Source: Phormidium tenue FACHB-886
GTDB taxonomy: Bacteria; Cyanobacteriota; Cyanobacteriia; Elainellales; Elainellaceae
Length of the DNA stretch: 64,000 nt
Direction of reading: 5' to 3'
Assembly (NCBI RefSeq): GCF_014764505.1
Contig: NZ_JACXWX010000020.1
Coordinates: 1-64,000 of the forward strand
Both the position numbers and the translations under genes were made by a program. A model generated the notes under the pieces. That model was not told the DNA's origin and did no database searches. It worked only from the letters and a program-made list of their open reading frames with translations. Every line of letters starts with the position of its first letter. Within the stretch, counting starts at the first letter, position 1. This document shows, piece after piece, positions 7,045-20,020 of the stretch.

Positions 7045-8610
7045 ATGAAAGGCAATCAAACAATCAACGCAACACAACAGAGCCGCCGAGACTTTGCTGG
7101 GCGCGCTGGCCGAGCAGAGTTTGACGTCATCATCGTCGGTGGTGGATCCGCCGGCGCAGTGCTGGCCAATCGCCTGAGTGCTGATCCATCTCGCCGTGTC
7201 TTGCTGATCGAAGCGGGCAAGGCCTATCCCCCAAACGCCTATCCCGACCCAGTCCGCCGCCAGGACCTAATGGGTGGCGATCCGCAGCACGACTGGGGCT
7301 TTTACAGCGAGCCTGGCGTGCTGGGCAGAAGGCTTCAGCTCAACCGCGGCAAGGTGCTGGGTGGCTCGTCTGCCATCAACGGTGCAGTGGCGATGCGGGT
7401 GCCGAAATACGACCACGATCGCTGGGCCAAGGCGCATGACCTCGACGCCTTGAACTGGCAAAGCTCGCAGGCCTTCTATCGTTCGCTGGAGCGTACCTCC
7501 GGCACTGGCGGCGACGGCCGCGACGGCTGCGTCCCCATCCACCAGCTCGGCAATGAAGAAGTGTCTGACCAGCATCGCGACTTCATCGCGTCGGCACTGG
7601 CTGCGGGCTACCAGCGCACATCGGGTTTTACGACGGGGCAGCCGCTGGGCGTTGGTCCCTATGTGATGAATACCCGCATGGGTGTGAGGCTTAACACAGG
7701 AATGACTTTGTTGGGCGATGCGGTGCGCGCCCGACCTAATCTGACCATCCGCGACGAGACGCTGGTCGATGCCGTGTTAGTGGAGCATTGCCAGGCCCAA
7801 GGCGTCCGACTGGCTGACGGGGCGATCATCCTAGCCGGTGAAATCATCCTTTCAGCGGGCACCTATGTCAGCCCGGCGATCCTGATGCGTTCCGGCATTG
7901 GCCCCTCTGAGGTGCTGCGAGGTCTTGACATCCCGGTCGTGTCCGAGCTGCCGGTCGGTCGCCGTCTACAGGATCACCCGATGGTTCCGACCGTCTGGTC
8001 GATTCGCAAGGAAGCAGTAGGCCTTCCGTATCCACCCATCGGCGCAATGCTGTGGACGGCATCCAACCACGCGACGAACGGCGAGGCAGATCTGAACATC
8101 AGCACCGCGACCCTGCCCGACGGTGGGCAGACTTCCGACGGCGCGATGTTCCTGCTGTTCGCTGCGCTCGTGAGACCGCGTTCCGTGGGTTCCCTCACCA
8201 TCGCCAGCCGCGATCCCTATGCTGCGCCCATCATCGATCTCGGCTTCCTGACGGACAGCGGTGACCGCGAGCGATTGGTCGATGGTGTCGAAGTCATCCG
8301 GAACATTGCGCGTCAGCAGCCTTTTGCCGATATGGTGGGTGCAGAACTGGCACCGGGCGCGGCAAAGAGCGACCGCGCTTCGATCAACGCCGCGCTCGCG
8401 GCCTCTGTGCAGAGCTATCAGCATCCGACCTCCACTGTACCTATGGGCGGACCGCGCGATGCCGGGGCCGTGGTGGATATTGACGGACACGTTCGTGGCG
8501 TCAAGAGCCTGCGAGTCGTCGATGCCTCGATCTGGCCTGACGTGCCCTCCGTCGCAACGGCTTTCCCGACCATGATGCTGGCCGAAAGCATCGCTGCCCG
8601 GATGGACTAA
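7045..8610 (+). CDS. GMC-family FAD-dependent oxidoreductase
   Basis: Predicted flavoprotein alcohol dehydrogenase/oxidase of the glucose-methanol-choline family, 521 residues, the usual length. The ATG at 7045 is chosen because AGGAG lies 7 bp upstream and a Rossmann FAD motif VGGGSAG follows at residues 31-37, with the second flavin signature GKVLGGSSAINGAV further on. The C-terminal active-site part has HPTSTVPMGG, keeping the catalytic His, and ends DASIWPDVPSVATAFPTMM. In most family members the second catalytic residue is Asn or His in an NTNAPT-like stretch; here it reads VATAFPT. The gene is visibly richer in G and C than its neighbours and lacks their cyanobacterial character, so transfer from a high-GC bacterium is likely. 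The substrate is unknown. Confidence 0.93.
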   Translation: MKGNQTINATQQSRRDFAGRAGRAEFDVIIVGGGSAGAVLANRLSADPSRRVLLIEAGKAYPPNAYPDPVRRQDLMGGDPQHDWGFYSEPGVLGRRLQLNRGKVLGGSSAINGAVAMRVPKYDHDRWAKAHDLDALNWQSSQAFYRSLERTSGTGGDGRDGCVPIHQLGNEEVSDQHRDFIASALAAGYQRTSGFTTGQPLGVGPYVMNTRMGVRLNTGMTLLGDAVRARPNLTIRDETLVDAVLVEHCQAQGVRLADGAIILAGEIILSAGTYVSPAILMRSGIGPSEVLRGLDIPVVSELPVGRRLQDHPMVPTVWSIRKEAVGLPYPPIGAMLWTASNHATNGEADLNISTATLPDGGQTSDGAMFLLFAALVRPRSVGSLTIASRDPYAAPIIDLGFLTDSGDRERLVDGVEVIRNIARQQPFADMVGAELAPGAAKSDRASINAALAASVQSYQHPTSTVPMGGPRDAGAVVDIDGHVRGVKSLRVVDASIWPDVPSVATAFPTMMLAESIAARMD

Positions 8611-8716
8611 GAGAAGTACGCAATCAGTGAAAGCAACCCCGCCCGAAAGAGCGATAGCTCTGAGATTTGCCGCAGGGGTAAGTCAACATCATCAACCCCA
8701 ACTTGGACACAATCAC

Positions 8717-9202
8717 ATGAAACAAGATCATCTCACAAGCGACGTCACGCTCGCCACCGCTGCACCCGCACACACGCAAGAGGCTGGCAAGGGTCTGACC
8801 GCAGCGCAATTGCTGAAGCGCAGTCTGGACACTTTCCTAGCCAAAGATATTAAGGGCTGGGCTGAACTCTGCGACGAAAACGTCGTCGTCGAATTCCCCT
8901 TCGCGCCCGACGTGGCGTCCAGAAAGCTGGTGGGCCGAGCGGCTATCTACGAGTATTTGAAGAACTATCCCAGCGTCATTGACGTGCAGCGGACTCCCAC
9001 GTTGAAGATCATCGCTACCGACGACCCCAGCATGGCCATTGCCGAATGGAGCGTCTCAGGCCGGGTGATCAGCAACGGCAATCCCTATGAAATGAGCTAC
9101 GCCACGTTTGTGACTGTCAAGAATGGGTTGATCGTCAATTACCGCGAGTACTGGGACCCGATGGTGTTCATGGCAGCCATGAGCGGCGCAAAGTTCTGGT
9201 GA
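8717..9202 (+). CDS. NTF2-like / SnoaL-type protein
   Basis: A 161-residue protein of the SnoaL/ketosteroid-isomerase-like fold: LLKRSLDTFLAKDIKGWAEL, then the cone-forming strands with VVEFPFAPD, GRAAIYEYLKNYP, AEWSVSGRV and NGLIVNYREYWDP. Members act as small isomerases, cyclases or dehydratases, or only bind ligands; the reaction cannot be told from sequence. The frame is open from 8627 with a GTG there, but the ATG at 8717 gives the length expected of the family. It follows the GMC gene by about 100 bp, has the same GC-rich composition, and its last codons overlap the truncated pirin gene. Confidence 0.85.
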   Translation: MKQDHLTSDVTLATAAPAHTQEAGKGLTAAQLLKRSLDTFLAKDIKGWAELCDENVVVEFPFAPDVASRKLVGRAAIYEYLKNYPSVIDVQRTPTLKIIATDDPSMAIAEWSVSGRVISNGNPYEMSYATFVTVKNGLIVNYREYWDPMVFMAAMSGAKFW

Positions 9203-9640
9203 CCTTGGCGAGTTGCTAAAACCGTTCGTGTTCCTTGACCTAGCCAGTTTTGATGCCACTGTGGGGAACCAAGGGTTCCCCATACACCCGCACTCCGGCA
9301 TCGCGACGCTGACGTTCATGACTCAGGGTAACTTTCGCTATGTGGACACGACTGGTCAGCAAGGCGTTTTGGCGGCTGGCGGTGTTGAATGGATGAAGGC
9401 AGGAAACGGCGTGTAGCAATCGGCACCCCCGTTGGCGACACGCAGGTTAAAGGCTTCCAGATCTGGATCTCCTTGCCCGCTGCGGAAGAAAACACGCCTG
9501 CGCAAAGCATCTACCTGGCTCCGTCCGACGTGCCGCAGGAAGGGCCTGCGCGGGCGCTATGGCGAGGCGAAAAGCCCTATCAACGCACTGGCGCAGATGA
9601 CATACCTCTCCGTCTCCATGCGTCGTAGCCAATGCTTGAA
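9198..9640 (+). pseudogene. Pirin-family protein, truncated and frameshifted
   Basis: In the frame of 9201 the sequence reads GDLGELLKPFVFLDLASFD, then HPHSGIATLTFMTQG and GVEWMKAGNGV before TAG at 9414. These are conserved pirin cupin blocks. A second frame resumes with GTPVGDTQVKGFQIWISLPA and IYLAPSDVPQEGPAR, and a third with GRYGEAKSPINALAQMTYLSVSM. So there are two frameshifts, about 25 N-terminal residues are missing and the C-terminal cupin is cut. The 5' junction lies inside the last codons of the NTF2-like gene, which shows that a deletion joined the two genes. Pirins are quercetinase-like or redox-regulatory cupins; this copy cannot be functional. Confidence 0.75.
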
Positions 9641-9691
9641 TTTCTGTTGACTTTCCATCGCAATATATTCAAAGGAATTTACGTTGATTGG

Positions 9692-9826
9692 CTACGGATT
9701 GTTGCGATCGCGCAGCGTGTGAATAGCACGTATCGCCTTTTCCAACCAATCTAAATAAGTCTGTTCCCGTTGCTTCACTAAGTCCAAAATCAGTCGATGC
9801 AATTCTTGTTCACGCGATGCAGTCGG
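9692..9826 (-). pseudogene. C-terminal gene fragment, family unknown
   Basis: On the minus strand a frame free of stops leads to TAG at 9692-9694 and encodes a helical, charged tail with the segments LHRLILDLVKQREQTYLDWL and ALRAIHTLRDRN-like residues (IRAIHTLRDRNNP at the end). It lies back to back with the gene at 9817. Its composition and the GCGATCGC within it look native. I do not recognise a family. The call rests only on coding-like sequence, so it may be chance. Confidence 0.3.
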
Positions 9827-10218
9827 ATTACTCAAAGATAGAGCCTCGATTGACCGATATCCGCATCAAGTTATTGCATTTGCATAAACTGTTGTTGGAT
9901 ACAGAGCGTATTCGTTACGAACAAGTGCGCGGACGGGTTTCTAAAGGTGAATTGCTGCAACTGGTAATCAATCACGATCAATTTGCCTGGTTGCATTACC
10001 TCTCAGAATTGATTGTACAAATTGATGAGTTAATCCACTCTGATGAGCCTGTCACCTCCGAGGTGATAACTGATCTCATTGCTGATGTTCAGATTCTACT
10101 CACACCTGATGAAGCTGGAAATGACTTTGCTATGAAGTATGATGCGGCGTTTCAACGCAACCCCGATGTGGTGTTAGCTCATGCTGATGTGGTCACACTG
10201 ATAGCGACTGAAGTTTAA
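9817..10218 (+). CDS. Conserved hypothetical protein, all-helical
   Basis: A 133-residue acidic, mostly helical protein: RLTDIRIKLLHLHKLLLDTE, then RIRYEQVRGRVSKGELLQLV, FAWLHYLSELIVQIDELIH and a C-terminal tail. The block RYE..RGRV....ELLQLV...FAWL..LS.LIV.IDEL is shared, as I recall, with small uncharacterised proteins of proteobacteria and cyanobacteria. No catalytic motif, signal peptide or membrane segment is visible. It is followed at once by a strong terminator-like hairpin, so it is probably monocistronic. Confidence 0.75.
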   Translation: MQSDYSKIEPRLTDIRIKLLHLHKLLLDTERIRYEQVRGRVSKGELLQLVINHDQFAWLHYLSELIVQIDELIHSDEPVTSEVITDLIADVQILLTPDEAGNDFAMKYDAAFQRNPDVVLAHADVVTLIATEV

Positions 10219-10229
10219 CGATAAATTGA

Positions 10230-10267
10230 GCAGTTCGTCCAGATTAAATTTAATCTGGACGAACTGC
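10230..10267 (+). terminator. Perfect 19-bp palindromic terminator
   Basis: The two 19-nt arms (10230-10248 and 10249-10267) are exact reverse complements with AAATTT at the centre, followed by TTTTA. It sits 11 bp after the stop at 10218 and fits a factor-independent terminator for that gene, although the stem is only moderately GC-rich. Confidence 0.75.
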
Positions 10268-10343
10268 TTTTATGCATTGTGTTTACCGAGTCGTAAGCAT
10301 TCGCGACGTGTTCAAGTATACTCTCAAACAAATCAGTGTGTCC

Positions 10344-10470
10344 GATTCTAACTTAAGTTATAACCAGCCTTCTACTCTGCGATCGCATAGCAACTCTATC
10401 AATTTGTACTGTAAAACTTTTAACTCGCTATAGACGACGACTCGAAGGCGATCTTCTATATTGAATTTAT
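10344..10470. repeat. 127-bp dispersed repeat, copy B, with 12-bp palindrome
   Basis: Second copy of the sequence at 6650-6776, same orientation, about 85% identical by hand count. The palindrome TAACTTAAGTTA is at 10349-10360. The copy ends 73 bp before the start codon at 10544. Conservation of the palindrome and of the core CAATTTGTACTGTAAAA, against scattered changes elsewhere, is what an operator plus promoter would look like. The rest of the 10219-10543 gap holds only the terminator. Confidence 0.75.
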
Positions 10471-10543
10471 GCAAATAGAGATGCAGTCAAGTGAATCGAG
10501 CAAGTGAATTGCAAGGTTTCCTGTCTGCTACGGATGTAGAAAG

Positions 10544-11101
10544 ATGAGCAACGATCGTAGCCAGGGTTCCTTACTTATCCCACCTTCAACCCAAGATTCG
10601 ATGCAAGGTGTGCTGAGTGCCAAGGTCGTGCTGGTGATGTATGGAGATTATCAAGGCTCCAGAAGTGCGGACGTTTACAAGTTGATTAAAGCGATCAAAC
10701 GAGAGCTTAGTGCTGCTTTTGGAGAAGATTATTTATGCTTCATCTTCCGTCATTTTCCACAAACACAGATTCATCCCCATGCTCAACGGGCAGCCCAAGC
10801 AGCCGTTGCTGCCGCCGCCCAAGGACAGTTTTGGTTAATGAGTGATACTTTATTTGACCATCAACAAAGGTTGGAGGACGGTTATCTTGTCGAGTACGCC
10901 AATGATCTAGGGCTTGACATTCCTCAATTTCTCAAAGAGTTGTCTAAACAAGTGCATGTCGATTGCATCAATGAAGATATTGAAGGCGGAATACAGAGTG
11001 GAGTGACGACTACTCCAGCCCTGTTTGTCAATGAAAGTCGGTATATCGGGCGATGGAACACGACGGAGTTGATGACTGCCATAATTGCTGCAAGTCATTA
11101 A
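10544..11101 (+). CDS. DsbA-like thioredoxin-fold protein lacking the CxxC motif
   Basis: A 185-residue protein with the DsbA/Thioredoxin_4 pattern: strand VVLVMYGDYQ, helix with ADVYKLIKAI, FIFRHFPQTQIHPHAQRAA, helical insert QFWLMSDTLFDHQQRL, and the cis-Pro loop TTTPALFVN followed by GRWNTTELM. In the family the strand is followed by CPxC (GDYQCPYC); here it is GDYQGSRSADVY, residues 34-45, with no cysteine at either position. It therefore cannot act as a thiol oxidoreductase by the standard mechanism. No signal peptide is visible, so it should be cytosolic. It is downstream of repeat copy B and upstream of the SDR gene. Confidence 0.85.
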   Translation: MSNDRSQGSLLIPPSTQDSMQGVLSAKVVLVMYGDYQGSRSADVYKLIKAIKRELSAAFGEDYLCFIFRHFPQTQIHPHAQRAAQAAVAAAAQGQFWLMSDTLFDHQQRLEDGYLVEYANDLGLDIPQFLKELSKQVHVDCINEDIEGGIQSGVTTTPALFVNESRYIGRWNTTELMTAIIAASH

Positions 11102-11303
11102 GTTCCCCGATCTTTGCTCTCAATTCATATCTGACTTGTCTATAAGTGCTGTAGGTTATCAAATTTTAATGGCTAGGATTTTGCTTGTTTCCTGAACAAA
11201 ATTGCCACTTTTTGAACCATGACAACAGTTACCATGCCAACAACTGAATTCTTTCGTATTGATTTAGTCAATTACAAATCGGTATTTCATTGAGGATAGT
11301 TCT

Positions 11304-11444
11304 ATGACGCATTCACTAGTACAAGGCAAGAATAATTCTGCGCATGAAGGTACACCTCAGACTGATTCTCTTCGAGACTCCTCAGTTAATCATGCCCTGA
11401 TTGCGATCGCACAACAAGTCACTGAACTGATGAAATTGAAATAG
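11304..11444 (+). CDS. Small 46-residue protein upstream of SDR
   Basis: Begins at ATG 11304, with GAGGA about 8 bp upstream, and ends at TAG 11442-11444, 10 bp before the SDR start. It encodes MTHSLVQGKNN at the start and ALIAIAQQVTELMKLK at the end: a polar, probably disordered front and one short amphipathic helix. The ribosome-binding site and tight spacing favour a real gene or leader peptide co-transcribed with the SDR. No family is recognised. Confidence 0.5.
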   Translation: MTHSLVQGKNNSAHEGTPQTDSLRDSSVNHALIAIAQQVTELMKLK

Positions 11445-11454
11445 GAAAAACAGA

Positions 11455-12210
11455 ATGATACTGCAAGATAAAGTGGCGTTAGTCACCGGAGGCACATCGG
11501 GAATTGGTCGTGCAACGGCGATCGCTTATGCCCAACAACAAGCAAAGGTGGTGGTGGTGGGTCGTCGAATGGATGAAGGTGAAGAAACTGTTCGATTGAT
11601 CAAGGAAGCTGGCAGAGAGGCGATTTTTGTGCAAGCAGATGTCACGAAAGAAGCCGATGTGAAAGCAATGGTTGATAAAGCGGTTGGCGTTTTTGGTCGG
11701 TTAGATATTGCCTTTAATAATGCCGGAACTGTCGGCGAAAATCCTTCACTGATTGAGCAAACAGAAGCGGAATACGATCGCATGATGAACGTCAATGTCA
11801 AAGGCGTTTGGTTGTCGATGAAGTATGAAATCGCTCAGATGTTGAAACAGGGAAGTGGTGCAATCGTCAATACGGCATCTGCGAATGGAGTAGTTGCACT
11901 TCCTAGCGTACCCCTCTACACCGCGAGTAAACATGCGGTAGTAGGCTTAACAAAAGCTGCTGCGCTCCAATATGCCAAAGCAGGTATTCGCATCAATGTC
12001 GTTGCACCAGCAGCAATCGAAACAGATATGTTTGAAGCAGCTACAGGTGGGCAGGATGAGGTCAAAGCTTACATAACAGGACTCCACCCGATCGGACGAA
12101 TTGGAACACCGCTTGAAGTTGCAAATGCAGTTCTGTTTTTATCATCTGACACGGCATCGTTCGTAACAGGTGAAACATTGATGGTAGATGGTGGGTTTGT
12201 AGCACAGTAG
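11455..12210 (+). CDS. Short-chain dehydrogenase/reductase (classical SDR)
   Basis: A 251-residue classical SDR, the standard length. The NAD(P)-binding motif TGGTSGIG is at residues 11-18, the adenine-ring motif NNAG follows, then the catalytic Ser in NTASANG and the YTASK pair (Tyr and Lys), and the C-terminal FLSSDTASFVTGETLMVDGG typical of the glucose 1-dehydrogenase/FabG-like group. The residues after the second beta strand, GRRMDEGEE, with Arg-Arg, hint at NADPH preference (inference). AGGAAAAAC precedes the ATG. Substrate unknown. Its sequence looks native in composition, unlike the GC-rich NTF2-like gene that follows. Confidence 0.93.
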   Translation: MILQDKVALVTGGTSGIGRATAIAYAQQQAKVVVVGRRMDEGEETVRLIKEAGREAIFVQADVTKEADVKAMVDKAVGVFGRLDIAFNNAGTVGENPSLIEQTEAEYDRMMNVNVKGVWLSMKYEIAQMLKQGSGAIVNTASANGVVALPSVPLYTASKHAVVGLTKAAALQYAKAGIRINVVAPAAIETDMFEAATGGQDEVKAYITGLHPIGRIGTPLEVANAVLFLSSDTASFVTGETLMVDGGFVAQ

Positions 12211-12319
12211 TCGAAAGGCAGTGCGAAATGTTTGATACAGCACTTCAAACGACTCACTAAAGCAACACTGAAATAGGTTCGCTAACTCCATCAGAAACTC
12301 CATAGGAATCTGCAAGAAG

Positions 12320-12346
12320 TTGAGTGTTGGAACTGACTACACTCAA
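12320..12346. promoter_or_regulatory. Inverted repeat, possible operator
   Basis: TTGAGTGT at 12320-12327 and its exact complement ACACTCAA at 12339-12346 are separated by 11 nt. This lies about 95 bp before the NTF2-like gene at 12440, in a 229-bp gap with no other signal. Size and spacing suit a dimeric regulator site. No regulator gene is adjacent. Confidence 0.3.
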
Positions 12347-12439
12347 GTGAACTAAGACAAAGAGGACTTAGGAGTTGATGATGATGTCCAAAGTGTTTTC
12401 TACCTCACCACCACAAAACTAAAGAAAGGAATCGTTACC

Positions 12440-12910
12440 ATGAGTACCCAACCGACCGAAGTGATCAAAGAGTTTCTGGCGAATACGGCAATCGAAAAGG
12501 TTGAGGCGGCTGCCCGACGGCTCGTCGCGGAGGACGCAACATACATTTCCCTGAATTTTGACAACCCTGAACTGAAGCAAATCTTGCCTTGGACGGGAAC
12601 CTCCAAAGGTCCCCAAGCGTTCATCGATACGTTCTCCCGGGTTGAGAAATGGTGGACGATCGAGGACTTCGCCGTTACCGCCCTCTTCGGTGAAGGCGAG
12701 AACGTTGCTGTGTTCGGCAGGTTCACGTACCGCTCGGTCTCGCTGAGCAAGGCGGTGACCTCACCGTTCTCGATCCACGCAAAGGTGCGCAACGGAAAGA
12801 TCGTGTACTTTCAGTTCATGGAGGATACTTTCGCGACCGCTCGCACTTTCAGCCAGAAGGGGACTTGGACCATCAAAATCGCTCCGAACCGGCCGGAGTT
12901 CGAGGTGTAA
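12440..12910 (+). CDS. NTF2-like / SnoaL-type protein, possible cassette gene
   Basis: A 156-residue protein of the SnoaL-like fold: VIKEFLANTAIEKVEAAARR, DATYISLNFDNPEL, GTSKGPQAFIDTFSRV, VFGRFTYRSVSLSKAV, and HAKVRNGKIVYFQFMEDTFA. GAAAGGAATCG precedes the ATG. The gene is clearly more GC-rich than the SDR before it. Its stop codon (12908-12910) is 14 bp before the R'' box of the first attC-like site, which is the spacing seen in integron gene cassettes. Such folds are common in cassette arrays. No reaction can be assigned. Confidence 0.85.
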   Translation: MSTQPTEVIKEFLANTAIEKVEAAARRLVAEDATYISLNFDNPELKQILPWTGTSKGPQAFIDTFSRVEKWWTIEDFAVTALFGEGENVAVFGRFTYRSVSLSKAVTSPFSIHAKVRNGKIVYFQFMEDTFATARTFSQKGTWTIKIAPNRPEFEV

Positions 12911-12924
12911 TAGCAGCCTACGAC

Positions 12925-13011
12925 GCCTAACCATGCGTTGCACCGGAACGCTACAATTTGGTCGGTTGAGTTTTCAAGGTTATCTGCGTCTGGTGAGCTT
13001 GGTCGTTAGAC
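12925..13011 (+). other. Candidate integron attC site 1
   Basis: Read directly: R'' GCCTAAC (12925-12931), 9-nt spacer, L'' CACCGGAACG (12941-12950), a variable centre, L' CGTCTGGTG (12987-12995), 9-nt spacer, R' GTTAGAC (13005-13011). L' pairs with L'' leaving one extra A in L'', and R'' pairs with R' with one mismatch. Unequal L arms with an extrahelical base and unpaired spacers between R and L boxes define attC. The site is 87 bp long and follows a gene stop by 14 bp. The site at 14058 has the same length and boxes. Inference: recombination site of a gene cassette. Confidence 0.7.
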
Positions 13012-13068
13012 TCCCTTATCTCATCAAATTAGAGTATTTGACGGATTCAATATAAATTGCTTCACTTT

Positions 13069-14067
13069 ATGTCCCCCAATTCTCGTCGTTCTGTAAGTCT
13101 GTTTCCCTGTCTAATCGCTCTACCTTTATCACTGCTATCTATGGGTTACACGACACAAGCCTCAACACCTGTCGAGGTTCACATTACAACGTTAACAGGC
13201 ACGCTCCATGGCACACAGATTATTCCAGCGTCTAATCTGCCAGAGCCAGCGGTGCTGATCATTGCGGGTTCTGGTCCGACCGATCGCAATGGAAACAATC
13301 CTCTAGCTGGGCAGAATAATAGCCTCAAACAACTAGCTGAAGGATTAGCGGGTCATGGCATTGCCTCGATCCGATATGACAAGCGCGGGATTGGAGAAAG
13401 CGCAGCCGCAGGACCTGAAGAAGCTGATTTGCGTTTCGATACCTATGTTGAAGATGCTGCACTTTGGATTCAGCAATTGCAGACAGATTCTCGTTTCTCA
13501 AGCATCACCGTAATTGGTCACAGCGAGGGCTCTTTGATTGGAATGCTGGCAATCCAAAAAACCGGAGCAGATGCTTTTGTATCAATCGCCGGAATTGCCC
13601 AAACTGCATCACAAGTTTTACAAGATCAACTGCGACCTAGATTGCCAGATGGATTATGGCAACAGAATGAGCAGATTCTTGCTGCTCTAGAGCAAGGGAA
13701 GAGAGTGACCTCTGTTCCACCAGAACTCAACGCGCTCTACAGATCGAGCATCCAACCCTACCTCATTTCCTGGTTTCGCTATACCCCTGCCCAAGAGATT
13801 AGGCGTCTCACTGTCCCTGTTCTAATTGTTCAAGGAACAACTGATATCCAAGTGTCTGTAAGGGAGGCGCAAGACCTGAAGAGGGCTAAGCCGGATGCGG
13901 AGCTTAGAATCATTGAGGGGATGAATCACGTCTTAAAAGCTGTTTCATTAGACCCTGAACAGCAAAATGCTTCCTATTCTGACCCAACGCTACCAGTTGT
14001 GCCTGAACTCGTTGAAGGGATAAGTCAATTTATTCATACCAGTGAGATGCGCCGTGAGTCTAACTAG
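13069..14067 (+). CDS. Secreted alpha/beta hydrolase (cassette gene)
   Basis: About 332 residues. The N-terminus (SLFPCLIALPLSLLSMGYTTQAS) is a signal peptide, so export is expected. The hydrolase core has the oxyanion strand VLIIAGSGPTDRNGNN, IASIRYDKRGIGES, the nucleophile elbow GHSEGS, an Asp after LIVQGTTDIQVS and the catalytic His in IIEGMNHVLK. This matches the uncharacterised serine-hydrolase group near the dienelactone hydrolases (COG1073-like). A TTG at 13057 is an alternative start. The gene fills the interval between two attC-like sites, and its TAG stop directly follows the R'' box of the second, so it looks like a mobile cassette of about 1.13 kb (13006-14138). Confidence 0.88.
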   Translation: MSPNSRRSVSLFPCLIALPLSLLSMGYTTQASTPVEVHITTLTGTLHGTQIIPASNLPEPAVLIIAGSGPTDRNGNNPLAGQNNSLKQLAEGLAGHGIASIRYDKRGIGESAAAGPEEADLRFDTYVEDAALWIQQLQTDSRFSSITVIGHSEGSLIGMLAIQKTGADAFVSIAGIAQTASQVLQDQLRPRLPDGLWQQNEQILAALEQGKRVTSVPPELNALYRSSIQPYLISWFRYTPAQEIRRLTVPVLIVQGTTDIQVSVREAQDLKRAKPDAELRIIEGMNHVLKAVSLDPEQQNASYSDPTLPVVPELVEGISQFIHTSEMRRESN

Positions 14068-14144
14068 TCACTGCACCGGAACGTGCCAAATTGATTGATT
14101 GAGTGGCAAAGGTTATTTGCGTCTGGTGAGCTTGGTCATTAGGC
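14058..14144 (+). other. Candidate integron attC site 2
   Basis: R'' GTCTAAC (14058-14064, overlapping the hydrolase stop), 9-nt spacer, L'' CACCGGAACG (14074-14083), centre, L' CGTCTGGTG (14120-14128), spacer, R' ATTAGGC (14138-14144). The length is again 87 bp. R'' matches the TTAGAC that opens this cassette at 13006 rather than the adjoining R' (TTAGGC). That is what cassette insertion predicts, because R'' and the 5' TTRRRC come from the same excised circle. R' has A in place of the usual G. Confidence 0.7.
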
Positions 14145-14268
14145 AGCGAGGGTGAAAAATAGACTTAATCGGAATTAAAAAAGCAATCAATTCTTAAACT
14201 GATTCCAAATCTTCTTGCAGATTGTTTGTCCATTGAGATATCGAGCACTTTATTACTGATAAGGTCCA

Positions 14269-14619
14269 ATGAAAAGAGAGTTAGCAATAAATTTTTTGTT
14301 CTCGCTTGTGGGCGGCGCAATGGTCTGGGCCTTGTCACCATCTTTATCCGGGCAGGTCGAACCGTGGGATGCGACAGGTTTTTATTATTCCGCAGCACTT
14401 CTTATTGTTGGCCTTACCGTTGGCCTTGCTCGGCCTAAACATGTTTGGTCGCACTATGCCGGTATTATTCTTGGTCAACTCACGTATATACTTTGTTTTC
14501 TGCCCGGCGGTCCGTTAATTCCTGTTGGAGTCGCTATTTTAGCGGCTTACTCCACAATCGCTTTAGCAGGAGCAGCAAGTGGGGCCTGGTTTCGTCGCGT
14601 CAGCCGGGGTGCGCGGTAA
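14269..14619 (+). CDS. Small integral membrane protein, possible third cassette gene
   Basis: A 116-residue protein with four predicted membrane segments (INFLFSLVGGAMVWALSPS, AALLIVGLTVGLA, YAGIILGQLTYILCFLPGG, VAILAAYSTIALAGAASGA) and a basic tail RRVSRGAR. No family is recognised. It begins 125 bp after the second attC-like site. The cassette would start TTAGGC at 14139, and a matching R''-like GCCTAAG occurs at 14628-14634, 9 bp after the stop. The L'' box expected next is not there; the IS110 element's non-coding end follows. Confidence 0.7.
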   Translation: MKRELAINFLFSLVGGAMVWALSPSLSGQVEPWDATGFYYSAALLIVGLTVGLARPKHVWSHYAGIILGQLTYILCFLPGGPLIPVGVAILAAYSTIALAGAASGAWFRRVSRGAR

Positions 14620-14627
14620 TTTTGCTG

Positions 14628-14634
14628 CCTAAGA
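14628..14634 (+). other. R''-like box of a possible third, truncated attC
   Basis: GCCTAAG, one base different from the R'' expected (GCCTAAC) for a cassette opening with TTAGGC. It lies 9 bp after the membrane-protein stop, as in the two complete sites. No L'', L' or R' boxes follow before the IS110 region. Seven bases are weak evidence on their own; only position and match to the cassette start make it worth noting. Confidence 0.3.
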
Positions 14635-14818
14635 TATTCCCTGAGCTTCACTGAGTCAAGTAAAAATGTAGAAACGCCCTTCCACCGTTACTGCTAGACT
14701 GATTACAAACACGGCGATCTACTGATTTTCATTCTGATTGCTTCAGCATTTCCAGAATTGAAAACCTAAATGGTATTTTGCTTTGTTATCGCAATCTACA
14801 AGATGACAAATATTGCGT

Positions 14819-16075
14819 TCATGCTTGTGAAGCGATTTTTTGTATGAGCGGCGAACCCTTCTGATGCAACGCAAGCAGATATTTGACTTCATCATACGGA
14901 ACTCGGTCTTGCCAGCAGCGAAACAGAATGCGAATCCACTTGAACGCCAACGCCCGAATCGCAGCTTGATGCGTCTTTCCAGCTTGTTTTTGGGCTTGAT
15001 AAAATGCCTTTGCCCAGACCGACGCTTTGCGAGATTCATTCGCCCACTCAATGAAGGTTTGTCTCAGAAATCTCGGTGCTCCCCAGCGCCAATGCACCCA
15101 GCACTTTTTCCCACTACGTTCTGTCACTGGCGCAATGCCCGCATACTGCAATAAGTCTTGGGCGCTCTGGTAACGAGTGCGGTCTTCCCCAAATGCCAGC
15201 AGTAATCGCGGCGCAAGGTTGCTTCCGGCATGAGGCAGAGCTGCAAAAATCGCGGCATCGGGTAGTTGATTGAACAAGCGATCGATTTCGCTTTCAAACT
15301 GACGTACCGATGTGAGCAAGCTACGAAGTTGACTGACCAATGCCTGTACCATCAATTGCGAAGATTCGACAATGGCAGGATCTTGCGTGAGCGGAATGCC
15401 GTTGCGTAAACACTCAATCCGACGAGCATTGCAGTCTTTGTAGCGAGAATGATGCTCACAGAAGAACTGCTGCAATTGTTCGTCACTGACTTGCTGCACC
15501 CTGCTCAAACTGGACCATTGGGTGAGAAAGTCACAGAACACTAGGGTATCACGATGCTCGAAACAATCAATCGCTTGCGGAAAGTAGCCTTTGAGAACAT
15601 CGACCAGTCGGTTGGTGGTGCGCCCGATGTCTTCAATTAGAGTGCGTCGCCATTCTACTAAGGCTTGCAGCTTTCTGAGATTCGGACTCGCAGGTTGCCA
15701 AGCCGTCAGTTTGTCATGGTGTTTCTGAAGCAATTCGACCTGGAGTTGTGCGTCAGTTGGGTCGTCTTTGGCACGACTCGGCGTAAAGGCTTGACGATAC
15801 TTGGAGACGGTTTGAGGATTGACCGGATAGAGAACGAGAAACTCATACTTGCATAGTGCATAGATTAATGGACCGCGTTTCTGTTCTAAGCAGATTGCGA
15901 TGGGCTGCCCACCATAGCGCATCCGCAGTTGCATTGCCCAAGCTTCAATCGCTTCTGGTCGAGCACCAATCACGCAATGTTCATGAGTCTGCGTCGCACA
16001 ATCATACAAACACACATCATGTTTTTGGTCTGCCCAATCCAAACCGATCAAAGCCGCGTAAGGAATTTCCGTCAT
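14819..16075 (-). CDS. IS110-family DEDD transposase
   Basis: About 418 residues, intact. The N-terminal RuvC-like DEDD domain shows the first acidic residue in LIGLDWADQKHD, the Glu in CLEQKRGP and the Asp pair in AKDDPTDAQL. The C-terminal Transposase_20 domain reads FAALPHAGSNLAPRLLLAFG, YAGIAPVTERSGK and RWGAPRFLRQTFIEW with the conserved Ser-containing loop. The ATG at 16075 is chosen over the one at 16108 because a GGAGG lies 10 bp upstream and family members begin close to this GLDWA motif. Recombines DNA through a guide-RNA-directed reaction in characterised members. Confidence 0.93.
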   Translation of the reverse strand: MTEIPYAALIGLDWADQKHDVCLYDCATQTHEHCVIGARPEAIEAWAMQLRMRYGGQPIAICLEQKRGPLIYALCKYEFLVLYPVNPQTVSKYRQAFTPSRAKDDPTDAQLQVELLQKHHDKLTAWQPASPNLRKLQALVEWRRTLIEDIGRTTNRLVDVLKGYFPQAIDCFEHRDTLVFCDFLTQWSSLSRVQQVSDEQLQQFFCEHHSRYKDCNARRIECLRNGIPLTQDPAIVESSQLMVQALVSQLRSLLTSVRQFESEIDRLFNQLPDAAIFAALPHAGSNLAPRLLLAFGEDRTRYQSAQDLLQYAGIAPVTERSGKKCWVHWRWGAPRFLRQTFIEWANESRKASVWAKAFYQAQKQAGKTHQAAIRALAFKWIRILFRCWQDRVPYDEVKYLLALHQKGSPLIQKIASQA

Positions 16076-16201
16076 CTGAGTCCACCTCCAAAACGAATGT
16101 GTCATCATGAGCTTGATTTCAATCCCAGTCGTCAGGCGAAAGCATTATGGCAGACATGAAAATCTGTCCCTGAGGATTCGTTCATTGAGGACTAGGGTGT
16201 G

Positions 16202-16266
16202 AGGTCAGTGCGGCAATATGTTAGGAGTCATCTAACTGTCGCCCGTTGCATAGTCGTCACTGACCT
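16202..16266 (-). ncRNA. Candidate structured (bridge-type) RNA of the IS110 element
   Basis: On the transposase-upstream side, AGGTCAGTG (16202-16210) and CACTGACCT (16258-16266) form a 9-bp outer stem. Inside, GGC (16212-16214) pairs with GCC (16241-16243) and GTTAG (16220-16224) with CTAAC (16232-16236), separated by unpaired internal loops. IS110 elements carry bridge RNAs with internal guide loops in this position. Whether this hairpin lies inside the element is not certain, because its end is not defined. Confidence 0.3.
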
Positions 16267-16321
16267 TTCCTATCTTCAGGGCAATTCCCATGACTCCGCT
16301 ACTGCCCTTGTCTACCCATAA

Positions 16322-16510
<189 letters not shown>

Positions 16511-17457
16511 TAGCCCTACGTAATAGCGACAGGACAGTATAATAAAAGGAAAGAAGAGAGTTGAGAACTGCTCATGTCCGCCCCCTACAGCTACGACCTC
16601 CGCACCAAAGCCATCGAGGCAGTCAAACGCGGTGAACGCAAAATTGCGGTGTGCCGACTGTTCAACATCAGTCGCAATACCTTAGACCTGTGGCTCAAAC
16701 GAGAGGAACAAACAGGAGACTACCAAGCCATCACAGGCTTCCAGAAGGAAATCGGCATAAAATCACCGATTGGAACCGCTTTGAGGAATTTGTCCAAAAG
16801 CATGGCGGCAAGACCCAAGGGGAAATGGCAAAGTTGTGGGGGGACAATGTGACTCAACAAAACATCAGCGATGCACTGATGAAGCTGGGTGTGAGTCGTA
16901 AAAAAAGACCTACGGCTATGTAGAACGGGATGAACTTAAGCGAGAGGAGTTTGAGGAACGATTGCAGGGCAAGATGCCCCATCAGGTGGTCTATGTCGAT
17001 GAAGCAGGCATCGATAACCGGGAGGATTACCCTTATGGCTACTGCGAGGTGGGACAACGCTTCTATGCCCTCAAGTCGGGCAAGCGCAGCGAACGAGTCA
17101 GTTGGATTGCCGCCTTGAAGGAAGGTTGTTTGTTTGCCCCGATGACGTTTGCAGGTTCTTGCAACCGAGACTTGTTTGAGTTGTGGTTGGAAGAATGCTT
17201 AGTGCCGCAATTGCAACCGGGGGATGTGATTGTGATTGACAATGCCAGTTTTCATCAGGGTCAAGCTATCGAGGAGATTGTGGCGCAAGCGAGATGTGAG
17301 ATTTGGTACTTGCCGCCTTATTCCCCAGATTTGAACAAGATTGAACGCTGGTGGAGTGTGCTCAAGAACTGGATGCGACAACGGTGGGATGAGTTTGAGA
17401 ACTTCCGTGATTGTGTCGATGCCGCCTTCACTGTCCTAGCGTATATACGTAGTGCTA
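16511..17457 (+). mobile_element. IS630-family insertion sequence, decayed
   Basis: A 947-bp element. The ends are imperfect inverted repeats: the first 28 bp begin TAGCCCTACGTA and the other end, read inward, begins TAGCACTACGTA, both closing with AGGACAGT (about 21 of 28 match by hand). TA dinucleotides at 16509-16510 and 17458-17459 are the target duplication typical of the IS630/Tc1 superfamily. The single gene inside is frameshifted. Confidence 0.8.
16574..17433 (+). pseudogene. IS630-family transposase, frameshifted twice
   Basis: Frame 1 gives the helix-turn-helix front, YSYDLRTKAIEAVKRGERK and VCRLFNISRNTLDLWLKREE. Near 16752 one G is missing and a second frame continues with NRHKITDWNRFEEFVQKHGG and AKLWGDNVTQQNISDALMKL. 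At the A-run near 16901 a third frame begins with TYGYVERDELKREEF and the DDE catalytic core: VVYVDEAGIDN (first Asp), VIVIDNASFHQ (second Asp), LPPYSPDLNKIERWW (Glu). The second shift falls on seven A residues and could be programmed -1 frameshifting. The first has no such explanation, so the copy is probably dead. Confidence 0.82.
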
Positions 17458-17468
17458 TAGCTCTGGTT

Positions 17469-19670
17469 TCAACGCTCGCACTGTCGCTGTTGAATCGGCA
17501 TTTGTGCCAGCAGGACAACTTCTCCTCGATCGTTCACTTGCCATCCTTGTGCTTCTTCGATCGGAGCATTGGAAGCAGCCGTTTCGCTCCAAGACTGCGG
17601 AGGGTGGAGGTCTTCCAAAATATCGCTGCTGCCTAACACATCGGTGGGCAAAGGTGCGATGCCGCCCCGCCCGGTTCGGTAGAATTCACCCTGGCTAGTT
17701 TGAGCTGCCGTGGTAGGAGAACAGCCGATCGCAATTAAGGTTGATGCATCTGTAACGTCTGCTGGCAATTCGGCTAAGCCTCGGCTGGGATCGACATCCG
17801 GGGCGTTGAGGAGGATGGTGCCTGCGGTGCCAAATTCAGAACTGGCAGTGATGTCACTCAAGGAAGTTGATTGGGAACGAGCCTGAATGCCCAAAATGCC
17901 CTGTGCAGTAATCTCAACTCTGCCACCTTTTCCTGTAAAGGCATCGGCGCTAATGTCGCTGTTCTCGTTGGGACTGGCTACGATGAAGGTGCCATCAACG
18001 GTTATATTGCCACCATCTCCCCCTGTCTGGTTTGTTCCAGCGGTTGTGGAAATAGAGCTACGTTGCTGCAACAGCAGGAGATCTTGAACTTGCAGCGTGA
18101 TGTTGCCACCCTGATTTTCTGTAGTTGTAGCGTCGATTCCCGATTGATTCCTTAGCGTAATGGATTGTGCTCGCACTACGATGTTGCCTGCATTTCCTGA
18201 CGGTCTATCATTTGCAGGTGCACCGATCGCACTCTCATCCTGAACGAGCAGCCTGCCTGTGTTGATCGTTACATTGCCTCCGTTTCCAGGTCCTCCAGTA
18301 GTTGCGAGGATAGCTCCTTGCCTGCTCAACTCTACAGACTCAGACGCATTAATCGTCAGATTAGCACCATCTCCGGATACCGAGAAAACCTGTCCGTCTT
18401 GAGAGGCATCTGCCGCTTCTGCGGATAAAATTCCTCCATCCTGGACGATTAGCCTCCTCGTGTTGATAGTAAGATTTGCTCCCTGCCCTGCACTGCCCGT
18501 CAAACTCACCAGTCCGCTAGAGAAACCAGCGCTATTTCGACCTGCTACCTCAACCAATTCGGCGGCATTCACGGTCAATTGACCTGCGGAACCGTTACCG
18601 AAAGTCGCAGAGAAGATTGTCCCTCCATCTCGAAGACTCAGCCTGCGAGTCTCGATCAGGAGATCGCCAGCTTTTCCATCTCCAAAAGTCACAGTCGATA
18701 AATTTCCATAGGCGACGCCACCAATCGCGTCCAAAGACTCAGAAGCGTTCACCGTTAAACGTCCTCCAGGTTCCGCTCCCAGAGTAGAGGTCGCGACTTG
18801 AGAACCGCCATTCATGAAAACCCGCCTACCCCAAATCTGGATCAAGCCCCCCCCTTCGCCGCTTGCATTGACTGTAGCCCCATCGGTGAGAGAAATATCT
18901 GCTCGATCGATCGCCGTAGGGAAACTCAAGCGCAAATTGTTGTCCTCTAGAGTTAGCCCTACTGTGCCTGTGCCTGCAACTGCTGCCAACTCCACCCGCC
19001 CTCCAGCGGCATTCACACCGCCCCCTACAAAGTTTATATCGCCGCCTAACAGGAGCAAACTTCGCCCGTCTGGCACTTGTAGCCCTTGTCTGTTCGCCAT
19101 TGGCAGCTCTTGTCCCGTTTCCAATGGAGTAGTTGAACGATTGACAATTGCTGCATGAGCAACGTGGTTAAACAAGAAAGCAGACGGTTGAACGGTGAGC
19201 AAGACAGGTGCTTCGGGATTGGTGGCACTGAAAAAACCTTGATTGCCGAACGCGATCGCATCAGCGGTCGATGCCAAGAACGAACCGCCCACATCCAATC
19301 GAGCATCCGGACCAAAAACCACACCGTTGGGATTGAGCAGAAATAGATTGGCAGTGCCATTGGTTCGCAGCAGCCCATCAATATTGGAAACAGAGTCCCC
19401 TGTGACTCGCGTGAGAATGTTCTCAACGTTAGCCGCATTGTTGAAGAATGCTTCTCCCTGCGTTGGAACAGAGAATTTCCGAAAGCTGTGAAACAAATTA
19501 TTCCCTTGCGTGGTGCCTCTATCGATCGTGCAAATGGTGCAGCCCGCTTCTACAACCGAAGCGTTAGGAAGCGTCTCATCCGGAACGATTTCGGCTTGAG
19601 CCACACCGATGCTCAATCCACTAAGGGTGATGCTGCTGATCATCCAGACGGAGAATAAAGGAAGTTTCAT
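17469..19670 (-). CDS. TpsA-like hemagglutinin-domain exoprotein (copy 1)
   Basis: About 733 residues. The ATG at 19670 is preferred because it starts directly on a signal peptide (MKLPLFSVWMISSITLSG...AQA); the frame extends 23 codons further. The TPS secretion domain follows, with GNNLFHSFRKFSVP, NIDGLLRTNGTANLFLLNPN, GVVFGPDARLDVGGSFLAST. The rest is beta-helical repeats rich in Gly-Asn and INT/INA. The C-terminal 90 residues (ADVTDAS..IAIGCSPTT, EFYRTGRGGIAPLP, LGSSDILEDL) are nearly identical to copy 2 at 40852. These proteins are exported through an outer-membrane TpsB porin; none is in the window. Its 3' end abuts the IS630 insertion but appears complete, since both copies end in QCER or HCER. 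Confidence 0.9.
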   Translation of the reverse strand: MKLPLFSVWMISSITLSGLSIGVAQAEIVPDETLPNASVVEAGCTICTIDRGTTQGNNLFHSFRKFSVPTQGEAFFNNAANVENILTRVTGDSVSNIDGLLRTNGTANLFLLNPNGVVFGPDARLDVGGSFLASTADAIAFGNQGFFSATNPEAPVLLTVQPSAFLFNHVAHAAIVNRSTTPLETGQELPMANRQGLQVPDGRSLLLLGGDINFVGGGVNAAGGRVELAAVAGTGTVGLTLEDNNLRLSFPTAIDRADISLTDGATVNASGEGGGLIQIWGRRVFMNGGSQVATSTLGAEPGGRLTVNASESLDAIGGVAYGNLSTVTFGDGKAGDLLIETRRLSLRDGGTIFSATFGNGSAGQLTVNAAELVEVAGRNSAGFSSGLVSLTGSAGQGANLTINTRRLIVQDGGILSAEAADASQDGQVFSVSGDGANLTINASESVELSRQGAILATTGGPGNGGNVTINTGRLLVQDESAIGAPANDRPSGNAGNIVVRAQSITLRNQSGIDATTTENQGGNITLQVQDLLLLQQRSSISTTAGTNQTGGDGGNITVDGTFIVASPNENSDISADAFTGKGGRVEITAQGILGIQARSQSTSLSDITASSEFGTAGTILLNAPDVDPSRGLAELPADVTDASTLIAIGCSPTTAAQTSQGEFYRTGRGGIAPLPTDVLGSSDILEDLHPPQSWSETAASNAPIEEAQGWQVNDRGEVVLLAQMPIQQRQCER

Positions 19671-19975
19671 ACGGGATGCGGGTTCGCTCCCTGAAGATTG
19701 TAGTTGTCCTGGCAGGTTTGTCAATAGTCCAGATAACACCCAGCAATAGGTGGAAGCAGAAACTGGAGGAAGCGATCGCTGATTTGATAGGAGCAGACGG
19801 GCTTTTCAAGGTATTTAGAAAAGCAAGAATAAAATTCTGCGGCATGTTGCTTTCTTTACAGAACGTTACCTGATGCGATTCTAAAATAGTGATTGCAATA
19901 GCGATTGCAGTCACTAAATATTAATTGCTGAGTTAACACTACTGCAGCGATAAAAGACCGTACATGAAAACCAGA

Positions 19976-20020
19976 AGAGTGCATGTTACGCCGCGCTTCG
20001 CGCGGCGTAACATGCACTCT
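19976..20020. terminator. Perfect 21-bp hairpin, 3-nt loop
   Basis: Arms 19976-19996 and 20000-20020 are exact complements, with loop TTC and a GC-rich tip (CGCCGCGC/GCGCGGCG), followed by CTTT. It lies between two minus-strand genes: upstream of the TpsA copy 1 start and downstream of the gene at 20260. It could terminate the latter, although the MITE-like element lies between them. It has no long U-tract, so a palindromic repeat element is an alternative. Confidence 0.5.

Follow-up and report, generated by a model that had tools for sequence, protein, structure and literature searches.

A probable remnant of an integron cassette array, without a detected integrase, in the cyanobacterium Phormidium tenue FACHB-886

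We analyzed a 64,000-nucleotide stretch of the Phormidium tenue FACHB-886 genome (the window) and identified a locus that is, with high probability, what remains of an integron cassette array devoid of an integrase and with degenerating recombination sites. The array consists, in order, of a SnoaL/NTF2-like cassette, attC1, an alpha/beta hydrolase cassette, attC2, a membrane-protein cassette and a truncated attC3 (Table 1). The first-pass annotation, made from the sequence alone, had proposed that attC sites flank a gene cassette in this region. We reached the same identification because the hydrolase cassette is precisely present or absent in related genomes, and because attC sites of the same type lie beside integron integrase genes (intI).

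Table 1. Coordinates of genes, cassettes and recombination sites in the window
Feature	Position	Strand	Details
SDR-family oxidoreductase gene	11455..12210	+	Pfam PF13561; upstream neighbour of the array
SnoaL/NTF2-like gene, cassette 1	12440..12910	+	Pfam PF12680 at threshold; gene stop 14 nt ahead of site 1 R''
attC site 1	12925..13011	+	R'' 12925-12931; L'' from 12937; extrahelical 12940 (G) and 12948 (A); L' to 12998; R' GTTAGAC 13005-13011
Mobile hydrolase cassette	13006..14138	+	starts at T of G^TTAGAC, ends at site 2 R' core base
Alpha/beta hydrolase gene	13057..14067	+	Pfam PF12146/PF00561; signal-peptide-like N-terminus; stop inside site 2
attC site 2	14058..14144	+	R'' 14058-14064; extrahelical 14073 and 14081; R' ATTAGGC 14138-14144
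Small putative membrane protein gene, cassette 3	14269..14619	+	matches no Pfam family
Third attC remnant (GCCTAA of R'')	14627..14632	+	full-length in relatives: L062:4682-4778, 23 bits
IS110-family element interrupting third attC	14633..16322	-	NF033542
5' remnant of next alpha/beta hydrolase gene	16374..16510	+	cut at 16510, start of IS630 region

The SDR gene upstream of the array is collinear with it in six related loci. In four of them (L070, L075, L081 and L086), attC1 is joined directly to the membrane-protein cassette at GTTAGG and the hydrolase cassette is absent without a scar, the missing segment corresponding to window bases 13010-14142. Two other loci, L088 and L090, show the three-cassette order of the window, and in two further loci (L087 and L111) the hydrolase cassette is solitary with exact ends. 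The stretch of L087 homologous to the window corresponds exactly to 13005-14144. The unit is therefore gained and lost precisely at G^TT, which is the behavior that defines a gene cassette. In the remaining two of the six collinear loci (L062:4223 and L068:6530), the SnoaL gene is gone and attC1 is kept, with different breakpoints; this is a gene loss that did not proceed via attC x attC recombination. We looked for the left end of cassette 1 in the window and found none, TTAGGC being absent. A cassette border at 11435, the upstream start of the SDR gene, was rejected as the core site is absent there.

One of these two solitary copies is in the closed genome G241, where homology spans 13006-14136 (93%) and the cassette directly follows the stop codon of a pentapeptide-repeat-like gene. 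The joined flanks of this insertion match uninterrupted in the congeners G085, G403 and G404, which keep the empty non-attC target. Insertion of single cassettes at non-attC (attG) sites was reported by Loot et al. 2024, according to the citing statements in PMC12901181 and PMC12444791. As far as sequence comparison can tell, the G241 insertion agrees with this published mode. It differs in an 8-bp change around the stop, which makes the exact target base ambiguous, and the window locus itself differs from attG insertions in being an array rather than a single insertion.

Both 87-bp sites that the first-pass annotation had placed at 12925 and 14058 are present, with a spacing of 1133 and 78% identity over an 83-nt core. 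They share the canonical parse R'' (7) - 5 nt - L'' - loop - L' - 6 nt - R' (7), with GYCTAAC as R'' consensus, GTTgCACC or ACTgCACC as L'', GGTGAGC as L' and two single extrahelical bases per site, at positions 16 and 24. The annotation was right about the sites and mistaken about their L boxes, to which it had assigned 9-nt spacers and one extrahelical base, because it equated the box with just the inner half of its stem. The sequences CACCGGAACG and CGTCTGGTG that it called L boxes continue the L stem inwards. The R''/R' pairs are GCCTAAC/GTTAGAC in site 1 and GTCTAAC/ATTAGGC in site 2, so that only site 1 strictly follows the attC rule of complementary RYYYAAC and GTTRRRY; in site 2 the core G is replaced by A at 14138. 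As had been claimed, R'' of site 2 fits the 5' end of its own cassette better than the adjoining R' (7/7 and 5/7, respectively). In the array of genome G185, the corresponding means are 6.0/7 and 5.25/7. The reported proximity of gene stops to R'' also held, with one stop 14 nt ahead of R'' at site 1 and TAG 14065-14067 within site 2.

In a geometry scan the two sites scored 14.5 and 13.0, and none of 100 simulated windows with the same dinucleotide make-up contained that layout at a score of 13 or more. The same scan recovers known attC sites of class 1 cassettes, including aadA1, aadA2, cmlA, sat2 and dfrB1. Like the sites of class 1 cassettes such as aadA and cmlA, those of the window have 5/6-nt spacers, an extrahelical base after the third L'' base and the R'/R'' consensus (the cmlA attC reads GCTGCAGC...GCTGAGC with 5/6 spacers). 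They differ in their length of 87 bp and their long, mostly unpaired terminal loop, whereas class 1 sites are near-perfect palindromes of 57-72 bp. When we aligned 20 cyanobacterial copies, leaving the window out, the RNAalifold consensus consisted of the L stem with both extrahelical bases. An Rfam search of window positions 8000-20000 returned zero matches, and the sites are therefore not explained by any RNA family.

From these 20 copies in relatives, again without the window, we derived a covariance model (R1), which matched site 1 with 102 bits and site 2 with 91 bits. A covariance match, of the kind that the annotation had suggested as a check, was obtained with this model from relatives' sites. 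Since R1 was built from look-alikes, its score alone shows homology and not attC identity. Independent proof of that identity comes from R1 arrays adjoining intact intI genes, with nine sites in Myxacorys californica (G185) and three each in G174 and G253, all on the opposite strand to intI. The nine M. californica sites have a single orientation and diverge from intI; on another contig (L081), this genome carries the SDR-SnoaL-attC-membrane-protein segment of the window. One R1 site lies beside intI in G080 as well. A first geometry scan of the intI-flanking regions gave few matches, and R1 found more.

When one genome per species was scanned with a sequence pattern, 37 loci emerged. Many are cyanobacterial and belong to the 87-bp subtype, within which the loop sequence is conserved; the rest are shorter and come from many phyla. 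The shorter sites include attC of 60-72 bp with the motif GGTGAGCTTGGTCGTTAG (the non-cyanobacterial loci among L058-L092), found in Omnitrophota, Planctomycetota, Zixibacteria, Cloacimonetes, Acidithiobacillus and others, which represent one subtype spread over many phyla.

The annotation had inferred an attC cluster without integrase, and our profile search points the same way: in the 255-contig assembly of the window's genome, where intI may lie on missing DNA, no TIGR02249 match exceeded the cut-off (the best reached 65 bits compared to a cut-off of 265, in pieces and with region 180-238 skipped). At the window locus attI was not seen, so that the array is not flanked by the intI and attI of a complete integron. 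A cluster of attC sites lacking an integron integrase is a CALIN as defined by IntegronFinder (PMC9024848), and the locus has the required two or more attC and no intI nearby. Like a CALIN, it has two complete attC within 4 kb, in one orientation and with one gene per cassette. Unlike a CALIN, its third attC is cut by IS110, its sites are predicted not to fold, and the remaining attC of the genome are mostly single and scattered, with few close pairs. The closed genome G027 has at least four R1-type sites and zero intI matches. In a closed cyanobacterial chromosome, frameshifted and truncated intI remnants adjoin an attC group (G286:C1:2145952-2146363, beside L113), and these remnants are a snapshot of CALIN formation.

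In a sample of 386 genomes of the phylum, intI exceeded the cut-off in 22 and R1-type attC occurred in 55; both were found together in 13 of the 22 intI genomes (odds ratio 11, uncorrected for phylogeny). R1-type attC occur in every one of the 36 genomes sampled from the window's family, a set that includes Leptolyngbyaceae cyanobacterium SM1_4_3, and 18 of the 36 have intI over the cut-off. Some of these 18 genes contain internal stops or end at contig ends.

The annotation had also expected a bottom-strand hairpin, and this was not confirmed, as neither window copy is predicted to fold as attC. All seven core L-stem pairs form in 18 of the 20 relatives' copies, with a probability of about 0.92, compared to none of seven in the two window copies, where the L-stem probability is 0.29 and 0.11. 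With DNA energies, the attC fold is the minimum-energy fold in 18/20 relatives' copies and in neither window copy. The predicted hairpin is lost through a C-to-T change in L' (12991 and 14124) that is common to both window copies and absent from the 20 relatives' sites, for which the search pattern permitted the change. Gene conversion between the two copies may possibly account for it. Sites beside intI fold as attC significantly more often than those of the window's genome (16/17 and 16/30, respectively, p = 0.004). From these fold predictions the window copies appear decayed, and their predicted inability to form the attC hairpin makes their present activity doubtful.

These data suggest how the locus may have formed. 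An integron integrase, either resident at that time or supplied by other DNA, would have acted on the folded bottom strands, cutting and rejoining R' at G^TT, so that the hydrolase cassette came to lie between its neighbours. Loss of the integrase would have followed, with the sites decaying ever since. The C-to-T change, the loss of the core G and the IS110 element in attC3 would all fit relaxed selection after such a loss.

Alternatively, the array may not be dead, and its cassettes may still be mobilized in trans, with the integrase coming from a plasmid, from another cell or from unassembled DNA. Cassettes are highly similar (mostly above 87%) between distant cyanobacterial groups in which their arrangements differ, half of the family has intI, sites of the window's type also occur on cyanobacterial plasmids, and 16 of the 30 sites of the genome itself still fold, all of which favors mobilization in trans. 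We consider it rather unlikely for this locus, given that the window copies have no predicted hairpin, that the core G is missing from site 2 and that no intI was found in the genome by TIGR02249. It is far less probable that the two copies reflect a duplication, whether by homologous recombination or by transposition of the hydrolase gene together with an adjacent repeat. Such events would agree with the C-to-T change common to both copies and unseen in relatives, as gene conversion would yield, and with the IS elements adjoining the array; they are opposed by the relatives, where each site goes with its own cassette when the other is absent, by the identity of just 78% between the copies, by cassette borders without IS ends and by the single cassettes with exact ends, which contradict a duplication.

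The remnant array that we favor is not an isolated occurrence in this genome. R1 returned 29 matches, 23 of them at E < 0.01, on many contigs and with a few close pairs. The genome-wide copies that the annotation had recommended looking for amount to about 28 further dispersed attC-like sites. The 30 matches from the window and the fetched regions covary, with two-sided changes in 18 of 20 pairs, and the 80 cells with such changes exceed the 29.5 seen in shuffles, in an alignment that was fitted to the model and is biased towards it. In 14 of 27 sites, R'' falls within -20 to +60 relative to a sense-ORF stop, compared to 1 of 27 in antisense and a random expectation of 1.75 (Fisher p about 1e-4). 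Closed genomes show a similar adjacency (14 of 26 in sense, 5 in antisense, 1.9 at random), so fragmentation is not its cause. The annotation had named a generic intergenic repeat away from gene stops among the findings that would overturn its reading, and the enrichment next to stops, in sense only, runs against such a repeat. An interspersed repeat (a miniature element or a transcription terminator) resembling attC by chance would explain the dispersal over many contigs and the conserved loop, and is still barely credible in view of the precise gain and loss of gene-plus-site units at G^TT, the arrays adjoining intI in one orientation, the stop adjacency only in sense, and the extrahelical bases and R'/R'' consensus common to class 1 cassettes.

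Reports of cyanobacterial integrons go back to Boucher et al. (cited in PMC2426708), and a covariance model of Cyanobacteria attC was built in PMC8352920. The window locus has the attC type of sedentary chromosomal integrons of cyanobacteria, whose arrays lie beside divergent intI in G185, G174 and G253; unlike these, it belongs to a genome without detected intI and shows no attI. Cyanobacterial integrons are therefore already published and CALINs are a named class, to which the locus adds a well-documented member. In the open-access literature we found no prior account of family-wide dispersed attC without intI, nor of a natural non-attC insertion with its empty target.

We tentatively propose, as one possibility, that the family shares a genome-wide pool of dispersed, mostly single cassettes, with spread across families, non-attC insertion and integrases that are transient or act in trans. 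If this were true, each genome would be a cassette repository rather than the holder of one array. The integron biology of photosynthetic bacteria is extended by one attC type present in every sampled genome of a family of which half has intI, and by natural before and after junctions of one cassette, together with a non-attC insertion whose empty target is kept in congeners. This provides direct material to test the path from integrase loss to attC decay, and to ask whether insertion of single cassettes outside arrays occurs in nature.

Attachment sites also occur on mobile DNA. Five cyanobacterial plasmids (NZ_CP046156.1, AP018275.1, NZ_CP117772.1, NZ_CP083584.1 and NZ_CP046709.1; L095-L099) have attC-like matches and are possible vehicles for cassettes; a search of plasmids for the hydrolase cassette gave zero matches.

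IS1111-attC elements target attC. We inferred the borders of the IS110 element (about 14633-16322) from the points at which homology with relatives and with another copy stops. A simple insertion into attC3 was rejected, as the far side of the element lacks the right half of attC3. IS110-like copies are also found on the attC-bearing contigs C65 and C76. Upstream of the array, positions 10229-10268 of the window form a perfect 20-bp inverted repeat with zero spacer.
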